DNA of 64,000 nucleotides. Source: an uncultured Halomicronema sp. Its GTDB lineage: Bacteria > Cyanobacteriota > Cyanobacteriia > Phormidesmidales > Phormidesmidaceae. Shown piece by piece: positions 22,436 through 25,225 of this stretch; positions within the stretch are counted from its first letter, which is position 1, and each line of letters opens with the position of its first letter. The notes below the pieces were generated by a model. That model had not been told where the DNA came from and ran no database searches. It worked only from the letters and a program-made list of their open reading frames with translations. The stretch spans positions 62,001 through 126,000 of the forward strand of contig CALCCA010000040.1 of the NCBI GenBank assembly GCA_937899725.1, written 5' to 3'. A program made the position numbers and the translations under genes.

Positions 22436-23458
22436 TTAAACTGGGGCCGGGGGTTCCACCATGCGCGGATTCCAGCGCGATCGTGACTCCTCGATATGCA
22501 TGTTTTTCTCATCCTTTTTCAGATGCCGAGGGCTACTTTCGAAGGAGAGAGAAGACGGCAACGGGTCGGTGCCGTATTTCGCCTGAATAAAAGCAGACAC
22601 GACTTCGTAACTGGGAGAAAACGGCTCGTCGCCTAGCTCAGACAACGCCGGGCTGGATTTCAGCGTGGCCGAAAATAACCCTGTACCATCATCAAAGAAC
22701 CGCTCTGTGGTCGCCCCGTAATCCCCATAGGGATGAAACGCCAGATCCGCCGGCGCAATGGCCGCTACCCAGGAGGAGTAGATCCAATATTCGCCATAGG
22801 TGCCGAACTCATTGGCCGATCGCATCATCAGCTTGAGCCAGTGTTCCGTAGAATCGTAGTAAGCCTGCACCCGCTCGGCCATTGCCCGCAGATGCGACTG
22901 TTTGAACCACATGTGATGGGGAATGAAGGTCCCCGCCACGTCTGTGATGGGTGCCACCTTCAACACCGAGCGAATCCAATTAGCCCAGGTATCCACGATT
23001 TTGGCGTTGCCGGTTTCGTTACTCTGCAACAGGGCAAAAGTATGCTGAACCGTACCACCAACCTCTTGAAAAATGGGCCAGGTAGCCACAGGCAGCAGGT
23101 CGCTGTCCCACACCAGGTACCATTCGCTGAGCCCCGGAATGCCTTCGTAAGCGCCCAGTTTTAACAACTGTTGGTAAAACCAGCCGGGCGTATACAGCGA
23201 TTCCCCCAGATCCAACTCGGCACAAATCGTGTCTTTAGAGAGGCCCACCCGATTAAAGAACGGCTCCTCTTCATGCACCACGATAGGGGCGGTTTGCCAA
23301 CGTTGGGCCTGCTCGCGGAGCGGCTCAGCCTCAGTCGTCGGCGTAATGATATGGATAGTGCGGGGCTGATAATGCTGAGTCAGACTCTCCATAACTGCCC
23401 GTGTATTCCACCTCACTTTAAAGAGGGGAATCACAAAATCGAACGTTTCAGTTGGCAT
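22436..23458 (-). CDS. DUF6492 family protein, glycosyltransferase-like
   Basis: A 340-residue soluble protein. The N-terminus (FDFVIPLFKVRWNTRAVMESL...IHIITP) looks like the first Rossmann half of a GT-A nucleotide-sugar enzyme, and VWDSDLLPV (D118-x-D120) resembles the metal-binding DxD motif. These features fit DUF6492, a family of unproven function usually placed near glycosyltransferases. It starts only 3 bases after the stop of the cyclase gene, so the two form an operon. I infer that it acts on the cyclase product, for instance adding a sugar. Confidence 0.75.
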   Translation of the reverse strand: MPTETFDFVIPLFKVRWNTRAVMESLTQHYQPRTIHIITPTTEAEPLREQAQRWQTAPIVVHEEEPFFNRVGLSKDTICAELDLGESLYTPGWFYQQLLKLGAYEGIPGLSEWYLVWDSDLLPVATWPIFQEVGGTVQHTFALLQSNETGNAKIVDTWANWIRSVLKVAPITDVAGTFIPHHMWFKQSHLRAMAERVQAYYDSTEHWLKLMMRSANEFGTYGEYWIYSSWVAAIAPADLAFHPYGDYGATTERFFDDGTGLFSATLKSSPALSELGDEPFSPSYEVVSAFIQAKYGTDPLPSSLSFESSPRHLKKDEKNMHIEESRSRWNPRMVEPPAPV

Positions 23459-23461
23459 AGA

Positions 23462-25225
23462 TTATGCGATCGCCTCCGGCATCGACGACAACGCCTCGGC
23501 TTCTGCGGGCGTGTGATGTGCAATGGTGGATGGATCCTCTAAGCCCACTTCACTACAGAGGGAATCGATGCCGCCTCCGGCCCGCGGATACTCAGCGCAG
23601 ATTGCCTGATATTCCGAAACGGCGATAATCAGCTCGTCCTGGGTCATCTCATTCAGGTAACCACACTGACCAATAGCCCCTTTCGGCAGAGGAGCGACTA
23701 GGTTGTTGCCGCGCTTTTGCACAATTTTTTCTTGAGCGGCCCACATGAGGTCGCGCTCCAGCAGAATGTCGCTCCACAGGCTGAGGCCAAAGGAGCTGAT
23801 CAAGTTCAGGATGCGCTCAAAGTCGGCTTTGCTGATCCACTCATGGCGGTAGCTGACGTAAGCGCCAAAACCCATGCCAATCGAGACCGCGTGGCCGTGG
23901 AGCAACCCAGATGCAATTTCAAACCCCGGAGACCAGGTATGGCCATAGGCATGGGGGCGACACTGATGAGTTTCGTACAGGTTGTCGTACTCAGCCTCAA
24001 CATAGCTGCGCATCGCCGCACCCAAGATTTTCTGTGACAGTTCACCGATGGGGGCATCGGCTGGGCAGTCTAAAGCGCCAAAGCGAGTGGTAATGAGTTC
24101 TGGACCCGCTTGCTCTAGGTAAGCAAACAACTCAGCATCTTTGACAACCGCCATTTTGATGATTTCCGCTACGCCGTGACGCAGCCAGCCTTCCTTCAAC
24201 GTCTTGAAGAAAGTGCGATCAGTGATGGAAAGCACCGGCGCATGATAAGCCCCAAATAGGTTCTTGTAGCCAAAGCCGTCGCAGCAAGTCCGCGGCGAAG
24301 GCCCGGCATCAATACCCGCCACAATCGAAGTGGAAAGCATCACGTAAGGCGTGTTGCGGTGGTAAAGCGCACAGGCCAAACCGCCCGTATCAGTCAGCAC
24401 ACCGCCGCCAATGATCAGCACCGGCTCATTACGCGAAACGCCTAAGCGCTTGAAGTCGCCCAGCATCCGTTCAACGGTATGAATCCCCTTATCCACTTCC
24501 ATCGCCCGGTAGACCAGCTTGTCTAAGTGGATGCCGTGATGCGCAAAGTAATGCTCGACCTGTTCGCCATAGAAGCGCTCAACGTTTTGGTCGATCAGAC
24601 AAACGCACCGTCCAGCCGCAATATACGTGTCACGCAGAATCGGCTGCTGAGGGTCCAAGACGTTCTCGAGCACACGGATGGAAGTAAAGGTGCTGGCGGT
24701 CATGACGGCTTCGACCGTTTGATCATCGTCGGTACTGACGACGTACCCCTTGCTGTGACGGTAGCTAGAGGTGGGATGAATCGCATGGGGATCAGTCTCT
24801 ACCAGGTGCTCAGCTAACTGTCGGTAGTAATCTCCCTCAGAACCTTGGACTAAGACTTGCAGCAGCTTTTCTTGACCGAGGGGCGATTGTCGAATTTGGT
24901 CAGCCCACTTGAACCATGCCGCACCCACCGCCACATCAAAGGCACCCAGCAGTTCAGACAGCAAGTTAGAAAAGTGACTTAAAGAACTGTTTAAGCAACT
25001 GCGCAGACGACGGCAAGCCGCTAACCCTTCGATCGCACCCGCATTCGCAAACTCTTGCCCTAACTCTGGAGCAAACGCTGGGGCATTAATCAATACCAGC
25101 AACAGTTCTCGGAAGGGCGAACTTGCGAAAAGTTGCTCAGTCGCATGTTCCAAGTCTTTATCAACTAAGGATTGGCTGTCATATGCTGCGATAAAGGCCT
25201 TCACTGCCGAAGTAGTCAATGTCAT
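23462..25225 (-). CDS. Sugar-phosphate cyclase, sedoheptulose-7-phosphate-cyclase-like, with N-terminal extension
   Basis: A 587-residue protein of the dehydroquinate-synthase superfamily. The NAD-binding GGGVLTD motif is at about 274-280. The three zinc ligands appear as Glu354 (HGVAEIIKM), His429 (YGHTWSP) and His443 (LLHGHAV). The segment GHTWSPGFE has Pro where dehydroquinate synthases have the second His of GHTFGHAIE; that change is typical of sedoheptulose 7-phosphate cyclases (EEVS, EVS, DDGS). The segment GIDAGPSPRTCCDG differs from the usual GLIDASV-type motif, so I do not assign the subtype. Residues 1-180 form a helical extension absent from normal cyclases of about 400 residues. 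The ATG at 25225 suits the family better than the upstream frame. No MysB/C mycosporine genes are adjacent. Confidence 0.8.
   Translation of the reverse strand: MTLTTSAVKAFIAAYDSQSLVDKDLEHATEQLFASSPFRELLLVLINAPAFAPELGQEFANAGAIEGLAACRRLRSCLNSSLSHFSNLLSELLGAFDVAVGAAWFKWADQIRQSPLGQEKLLQVLVQGSEGDYYRQLAEHLVETDPHAIHPTSSYRHSKGYVVSTDDDQTVEAVMTASTFTSIRVLENVLDPQQPILRDTYIAAGRCVCLIDQNVERFYGEQVEHYFAHHGIHLDKLVYRAMEVDKGIHTVERMLGDFKRLGVSRNEPVLIIGGGVLTDTGGLACALYHRNTPYVMLSTSIVAGIDAGPSPRTCCDGFGYKNLFGAYHAPVLSITDRTFFKTLKEGWLRHGVAEIIKMAVVKDAELFAYLEQAGPELITTRFGALDCPADAPIGELSQKILGAAMRSYVEAEYDNLYETHQCRPHAYGHTWSPGFEIASGLLHGHAVSIGMGFGAYVSYRHEWISKADFERILNLISSFGLSLWSDILLERDLMWAAQEKIVQKRGNNLVAPLPKGAIGQCGYLNEMTQDELIIAVSEYQAICAEYPRAGGGIDSLCSEVGLEDPSTIAHHTPAEAEALSSMPEAIA

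Follow-up and report, generated by a model that had tools for sequence, protein, structure and literature searches.

The window, a stretch of 64,000 nucleotides from an uncultured Halomicronema species (contig CALCCA010000040.1), carries a two-gene unit in which the gene for a long sugar-phosphate cyclase is followed after 3 bp, on the same minus strand, by a gene for a DUF6492 protein. Judged by its sequence, the cyclase falls in a second, long clade of MysA, the desmethyl-4-deoxygadusol synthase (DDGS), and this clade is sister to classical DDGS. The cyclase is of a known kind; what is new is the DUF6492 partner and the two-gene setting, and this partner hints that many cyanobacteria and some bacteria of the ocean make an unrecognized compound related to sunscreens. 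Both genes lie where a preliminary description of the window had placed them, and both are under purifying selection (ratio of nonsynonymous to synonymous substitution rates, dN/dS, about 0.04 to 0.07 against relatives of the same genus).

The placement of the cyclase comes from a tree of 72 cyclase rows, inferred with IQ-TREE by using site profiles and rooted for drawing only, in which the 2-epi-5-epi-valiolone synthases (EEVS) are represented by one characterized row and EVS and DOIS by none. The PSPRTC clade, comprising 38 long and 14 mid-length sequences (52 rows), is sister to 12 classical DDGS rows that include 5tpr, with support of 100/99. Outside these two groups fall ValA (an EEVS), the divergent, mys-linked L065 on a long branch, and the 3-dehydroquinate synthase (DHQS) and Ebo-like rows. 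The preliminary description had proposed a new cyclitol, and a grouping with DDGS is the outcome named beforehand as speaking against it; the idea is thus not borne out for the cyclase. We also set aside a new cyclitol as the favored reading, since mysA genes within mys clusters belong to the clade and carry its signature segment. Mys-linked long rows (Bacteroidota; L053-L055; L157; L166) are scattered among the DUF6492-paired ones. When 22 paired and nine mys-linked long cyclases are compared, no column of the catalytic part is fixed differently (95%), and one column, 185, is disjoint (V or L against I). Two distant MysA clades have already been noted (PMC10510106), and a clade of uncharacterized relatives is drawn as 'DDGS?' in PMC5133447; either may or may not match the PSPRTC clade. 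Dolichospermum strains with mysABCD are reported to produce porphyra-334 and shinorine (PMC11738650), and the Dolichospermum and Aphanizomenon mysA genes in our set, from strains other than those of that study, are mid-length PSPRTC types (L172, L175). As a separate observation, L065 (L065:6752-8023, G091) has EEVS-like F431 and E445 and adjoins O-methyltransferase and ATP-grasp genes.

Among solved structures, the best relatives by sequence are DDGS 5tpr, at 275 bits, and ValA 4p53, an EEVS, at 188 bits; the Pfam matches are DHQ_synthase (1.6e-17) and DHQS_C (4.6e-17). In the predicted model (mean pLDDT 89), a helical domain precedes a standard cyclase fold, and the best structure match of the model is 5tpr (TM-score on the target, 0.94; root-mean-square deviation, 1.8). 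The long helical N-terminal extension described earlier is present and all-helical, but it is nearer 150 than the claimed 180 residues, because the model is helical over about residues 1 to 149 and 5tpr, with 400 residues, aligns over 403 model columns. In this domain pLDDT exceeds 80 in every ten-residue block; the domain is also kept in SAR11 and Bacteroidota homologues, has no Pfam match, and has no meaningful PDB sequence match (one at E 0.92).

E354, H429, and H443, which we take by analogy with DHQS to be the zinc ligands, and P433 occur in all 38 long rows; like the unusual GIDAGPSPRTCCDG segment, they are present in the window cyclase as first described. W431 and H445 are common to the cyclase and all 12 DDGS rows and are absent from ValA, L065, and the Ebo-like and DHQS rows. 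The cyclase does not group with ValA and has neither F431 nor E445 of the ValA type. R312 and K504 are marks of the PSPRTC clade: all 38 long and all 14 mid-length rows have R312, so the active-site-segment Lys of classical DDGS is missing from all 52, and Lys occupies this position in the 12 DDGS, ValA, L065, three Ebo-like, and three DHQS rows. Because R312 also occurs in mysA of mys clusters, it is better read as a clade mark than as a sign of another function. The superfamily name given by Pfam and NCBIfam, DHQ synthase, might suggest an extra DHQS, but this is scarcely credible: the cyclase scores 136 bits against the aroB equivalog cut-off of 305, it has Pro at position 433 where three DHQS and three Ebo-like rows have His, and the window genome has its own, separate 371-amino-acid DHQS-type gene (L195). 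We rejected a DHQS identity on the first two of these grounds. An Ebo-type identity was likewise rejected, because a separate Ebo-like gene (L069) exists and its relatives L067, L068, and L114 lie far off in the tree. This third sugar-phosphate cyclase, seen as L069 (G000:C12) in the window genome and L114 (G003:C19) in a second genome, has shared neighbors that by eye include a UbiA-like gene.

Long homologues are widespread. Among 95 related genomes scanned, the window's own included, 28 carry one (two cut by contig ends; the others 65 to 88% identical to the window cyclase), and a 29th (G039) has only a C-terminal cyclase fragment at a contig edge. From named genomes, a further scan retrieved 171 pattern matches and 140 relatives, of which the best 80 were kept; carriers among these 80 include Leptolyngbya, Hyella, Xenococcus, Pleurocapsa, SAR11 single cells, Flavobacteriaceae, Nonlabens, Saprospiraceae, a Polaromonas bin, Puniceicoccaceae, and others, with labels such as Flammeovirgaceae, Polaromonas, or Planctomycetaceae being metagenome-bin labels that may be wrong. 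In the SAR11 family, 10 of 297 genomes have the cyclase (E 1e-60). A scan of viral contigs for phage carriage returned 21 pattern matches, none of them a relative.

These homologues occur in several gene contexts, in which MysB, MysC, MysD, and MysH were assigned by family (PF01596; NF005315 with ATP-grasp; PF07478; PF02668) and gene order. In the window and most cyanobacteria, and also in SAR11 (L159, L161, L162, L164) and Puniceicoccaceae (L169), the long cyclase is followed by DUF6492, with no mysB or mysC within the stretch fetched. Elsewhere it stands as mysA with O-methyltransferase and ATP-grasp genes (L152, L153, L157, L165-L168, L178), to which a MysD-like ligase, HAD, and TauD are often added. 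Locus L155 unites HAD, TauD, MysD-, MysC-, and MysB-like genes, the long cyclase, and DUF6492. The long cyclase is accompanied by mysB and mysC in nine loci, the window not among them, and is the mysA of mys clusters in Bacteroidota, proteobacteria, and some cyanobacteria. The mid-length type, of about 450 amino acids with the PSPRTC segment and no helical domain, is found in L172-L194, where 22 of the 23 loci have mysB (O-methyltransferase) and mysC (ATP-grasp) close by; L189 has little sequence past the cyclase. One genome, G059, has such a mid-length MysA-type cyclase (L057:4426-5778) as well as the long cyclase/DUF6492 pair.

In other genomes, the long cyclase lies apart from the remaining mys genes. 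G003, of the same genus as the window genome (its contig matches Oscillatoria sp. CS-180), has a locus (L108) with O-methyltransferase, ATP-grasp, MysD-like, TauD, and HAD genes but no cyclase, and its sole DDGS-type cyclase is the long one adjoining DUF6492. Each of 28 further genomes has exactly one DDGS-type cyclase (E 1e-50), the long one; MysC occurs in 11 of the 28, and in seven of these 11 the cyclase lies away from the MysC locus (G343, G390, G393-G396, G406). No cyclase remnant was found in the eight mysA-less loci searched, those of the seven genomes and L108. G714 and G716, of the genus of G343, likewise have MysC and an unlinked long cyclase as their only DDGS-type cyclase, so that, with G003, ten genomes (three of one genus) have this arrangement. 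Many Pleurocapsales are described as having mys clusters without mysA, the role of their mysA-like homologues being given there as 'not known'; the Hyella patelloides cluster includes genes for a transporter and a GNAT protein, and the involvement of its mysA-like homologue is called unknown in the same account (PMC8472315). That homologue is the long unlinked cyclase of G390, and L227 shows a mysA-less cluster of this sort.

G714, a single contig of 4,179,170 bases, provides a functional anchor. Its MysC is at 1.177 Mb and its long cyclase at 1.743 Mb; divided by the gene numbers, these positions give 1093 and 1097 bases per number. MysB, MysC, and MysD lie side by side on the minus strand, and genes that we take by their motifs to be adjacent class I and class II aldolases occupy 3.074-3.077 Mb, or about 1080 bases for each gene number. 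The adjacent class I and II aldolases of Halothece are numbered 2846 and 2847 (PMC7151593). In Halothece PCC 7418 the mysA gene (PCC7418_1590) is unlinked to mysB-D, and together with them it yields mycosporine-2-glycine (M2G) in Synechococcus (PMC12981126); PMC9374696 terms H1590 a 3-dehydroquinate synthase and counts it as an M2G gene. From the fit of the three gene positions, G714 is almost certainly Halothece PCC 7418. Its cyclase has 587 amino acids and is 70.5% identical to the window cyclase over 586 of them, and, through this probable gene identity, a 70%-identical enzyme has been shown by others to work as MysA in a heterologous host. A long unlinked cyclase is accordingly a candidate for the mysA missing from Pleurocapsales clusters, as in Hyella patelloides and the probable Halothece.

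Within the class, DUF6492 occurs in 36 of 388 genomes, all 36 of which also carry the long cyclase (G039 as its contig-edge fragment), and in none of the 388 does it occur without the cyclase. The Fisher value of 9e-46 is inflated by relatedness, so the claim of pairing rests on the count. Of the class's 41 genomes with a long cyclase, five lack DUF6492: mys genes are present in G024, G343, and, going by the identical locus in G395, G234; G009 has a contig that ends in the cyclase; and G112 has its cyclase in two overlapping pieces and fell outside the MysC search. Among 32 genomes reached through loci, DUF6492 is present in 22 (as a remnant in G395), and nine of the other ten have mys genes, with G417 outside the check. 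With G009 as the one exception, every long-cyclase genome checked both ways carries DUF6492, mys genes, or the two together. The pairing extends to SAR11 and Verrucomicrobia, the two genes overlap by one base in SAR11 locus L159, and the gap is at most 100 bp in 57 of 72 loci, a figure based on mechanical starts, with some loci counted twice and strongly negative gaps being start-codon artefacts. Because the partner is conserved across phyla, we do not regard the pair as a chance association. No third gene of the operon is conserved across genera in 45 loci, and the commonest shared neighbors, in six of the 45, reflect synteny of closely related Leptolyngbya-type genomes.

Separated and decayed copies were also observed. 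The orphan DUF6492 of G033 and G036 is intact and under purifying selection (dN/dS about 0.11), and the long cyclase of these genomes is in a mys cluster, which suggests that DUF6492 still functions when the cyclase lies elsewhere. In G036 (L066:7016-7402, G036:C201) the cyclase beside DUF6492 is an N-terminal remnant with stops, and a second long cyclase is in a mys cluster. In G395 and G234 (a Myxosarcina bin with mysBC elsewhere), a weak DUF6492-like remnant with stops (L134:9906 onward, E 8.9e-8) follows the long cyclase, as if the partner had been lost.

The DUF6492 protein matches its Pfam family at 8.4e-12 (45.2 bits, above the gathering score of 22.9), and 17 of 20 homologues match PF20102 (E 0.1). 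The DxD reported in it is present, and all 20 homologues keep both D118 and D120. Its model (pLDDT 83, pTM 0.87) has as its best fold matches CpsY (Z 15.1) and GNPTAB (Z 14.5), followed by mannosyl- and galactosyltransferases of the GT-A type at about 10. A Pfam scan of the 20 members, in which the CR1-CR4 motifs were not compared residue by residue, returned no Stealth model among the families matched. The word DUF6492 was found in no paper of the literature searched, a statement that holds for that word only, and a search of SAR11 literature turned up no publication that we recognized as dealing with the long cyclase/DUF6492 pair.

The explanation that we consider reasonably likely overall is a MysA-type cyclase with a DUF6492 transferase that decorates its product. 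The cyclase, with bound NAD+ and Zn2+, would convert sedoheptulose 7-phosphate to 2-desmethyl-4-deoxygadusol (DDG), the first step toward mycosporine sunscreens, and it very likely does so. DUF6492 might then act as a GT-A/Stealth-fold transferase that adds a sugar or sugar phosphate to DDG or a DDG-derived compound, a step whose substrate and product we favor by a slight balance of the evidence. In the window genome, the two genes would amount to a short route that ends in a decorated deoxygadusol, and in related genomes the same cyclase would feed a mysB-mysC(-mysD) set lying elsewhere. Membership of the MysA superclade, the gene context, the pairing, and the folds are direct results of computation. 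The earlier suggestion that DUF6492 decorates a cyclitol survives in part: given the conserved pairing and the GT-A/Stealth-type model, the product may be a decorated deoxygadusol, but the cyclitol itself is unlikely to be new.

The absence of mycosporine genes noted earlier is correct for the whole window genome (G000, 99.98% complete), although it is misleading for the cyclase family at large. MysC has no homologue in it at 1e-10, and no mys-type MysB was found, only generic O-methyltransferases 37 to 42% identical to MysB, against at least 54% in the 11 genomes with a mys-type MysB. The probable product of the pair is therefore a deoxygadusol decorated with a sugar or sugar phosphate; in this genome we do not expect canonical mycosporine synthesis, but we do expect a DDG-derived compound made via DUF6492. 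These same absences make it very improbable that mys genes at another place in this genome receive their DDG from the pair, as the arrangement in the ten other genomes might suggest. Alternatively, the pair might yield DDG only, released or kept as an unmodified antioxidant, with DUF6492 acting on an envelope sugar and lying nearby by history. This is unlikely, though it deserves attention: DUF6492 is missing genome-wide from the long-cyclase mys genomes G343, G393, and G396, and its fold match gives no substrate. Since some mys-bearing long-cyclase genomes are without DUF6492, the cyclase does not need it; yet DUF6492 never occurs without the long cyclase in the 388 genomes, and the pairing also holds in SAR11 and Verrucomicrobiota, with overlapping genes in the former.

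Several points weigh against a DDG-decorating pair. R312 and nearby changes alter an active-site segment that normally bears Lys. The identity of G714 with Halothece rests on the fit of gene positions, and the M2G experiment alone does not prove the MysA step, because Synechococcus has its own DHQS. The MysC search covered 37 of the 41 long-cyclase genomes (G099, G112, G289, and G354 being left out), and 'no mys genes' holds for those searched. DUF6492 has no sequence match among solved structures, its Foldseek TM-scores are about 0.4, and likeness of fold does not establish a function. Should DDG stay unmethylated in the window genome, the product would fall outside known mycosporine chemistry. 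R312 in place of Lys and 23 columns at which the PSPRTC clade departs from a residue fixed in DDGS, together with the lack of MysC in most paired genomes searched, might instead indicate a cyclase that makes another C7 cyclitol (2-epi-5-epi-valiolone, 2-epi-valiolone, or a new one) for glycosylation by DUF6492. We consider this improbable: ValA lies outside the combined DDGS and long clade, both the mysA genes of mys clusters and the Halothece-like enzyme carry segments of the GIDAGPSPRTCCDG type, and paired and mys-linked enzymes have no column fixed differently. A new primary cyclitol is unlikely because of the DDGS grouping, the 70% identity to the Halothece-like MysA, and the service of relatives as mysA; most likely, the enzyme is a MysA of a kind already known, if little described, and not the source of a new sugar ring.

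Coordinates of the cyclase and DUF6492 genes and their parts in the window
Feature	Position	Strand	Basis
Long MysA-type cyclase (second-clade desmethyl-4-deoxygadusol synthase), 587 amino acids	23462..25225, ATG at 25225	-	Pfam, tree, structure match
DUF6492 protein, 340 amino acids, predicted GT-A/Stealth-like fold	22436..23458	-	Pfam PF20102 and predicted model
N-terminal all-helical domain, about residues 1-149, without Pfam match	24779..25225	-	Predicted model
Catalytic sugar-phosphate cyclase domain, about residues 150-568	23522..24778	-	Structural match to DDGS 5tpr
GIDAGPSPRTCCDG segment, residues 304-317, clade signature, R312 for the usual Lys	24275..24316	-	Alignment rows
DxD (D118-S-D120) of DUF6492, presumed metal/nucleotide-sugar site	23099..23107	-	Role inferred from GT-A fold

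Other genes recur near these loci. Sodium:solute symporter-like genes lie beside mysBC loci (L227:7281-8687, L229:6892-8325, L230:8284-9699, L233:26-1423), beside a long-cyclase mys cluster (L054:9482-10879), and downstream of the SAR11 pair (L159:10696-12099), where the symporter is on the other strand together with a photolyase-related gene, PF04244 (L159:13191-14681). These genes, of which those of L229 and L159 were confirmed by the Pfam SSF model, possibly encode a transporter of the product. A HAD-family hydrolase that recurs in mys clusters (L108:3735-4421, L155:2796-3458, L165:9758-10468) perhaps removes a phosphate.

More broadly, we tentatively propose, at somewhat short of an even chance, that long MysA and DUF6492 form a two-gene pathway to a sugar- or sugar-phosphate-linked deoxygadusol, neither a mycosporine nor a mycosporine-like amino acid, that is widespread in cyanobacteria and also present in the streamlined SAR11 and in Verrucomicrobia. 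If so, this would be an overlooked class of UV-absorbing or antioxidant compounds in the surface ocean and mats, with DUF6492 as the first enzyme known to make it. DUF6492, a family without known function, thereby gains a candidate pathway and a testable reaction, and surveys that seek mysABCD together would miss deoxygadusol-type compounds in pair-only cyanobacteria and SAR11.

Among known systems, the window cyclase most resembles the MysA of Halothece PCC 7418, as identified through G714, in its length of 587 amino acids, N-terminal extension, PSPRTCC segment, and 70.5% identity. The Halothece-like genome differs in having no DUF6492 within the 16-kb stretch read around the cyclase and in possessing mysB-D, the reverse of the window genome. 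Classical DDGS (Anabaena variabilis Ava_3858, 5tpr) is the sister clade and shares the fold, W431, H445, P433, and the zinc ligands, whereas it lacks the N-terminal helical domain, has Lys in place of R312, and is 34% identical in the structural match. The mid-length MysA of Nostocales, Okeania, and Trichodesmium mys clusters belongs to the same clade and has the PSPRTC segment (43 to 48% identity); unlike the long cyclase, it is without the helical domain and usually has mysB and mysC nearby. The best fold matches of the DUF6492 model, the Stealth phosphotransferases (CpsY, GNPTAB) and GT-A glycosyltransferases, are about 6 to 15% identical to it. MysG and MysJ of Nostoc sp. UHCC 0302 are comparable to the proposed role of DUF6492 as sugar transferases tied to mycosporine-like compounds, but DUF6492 belongs to another family: MysG is described as a GT4-family protein, and MysJ as resembling a beta-1,6-N-acetylglucosaminyltransferase (PMC11378024).

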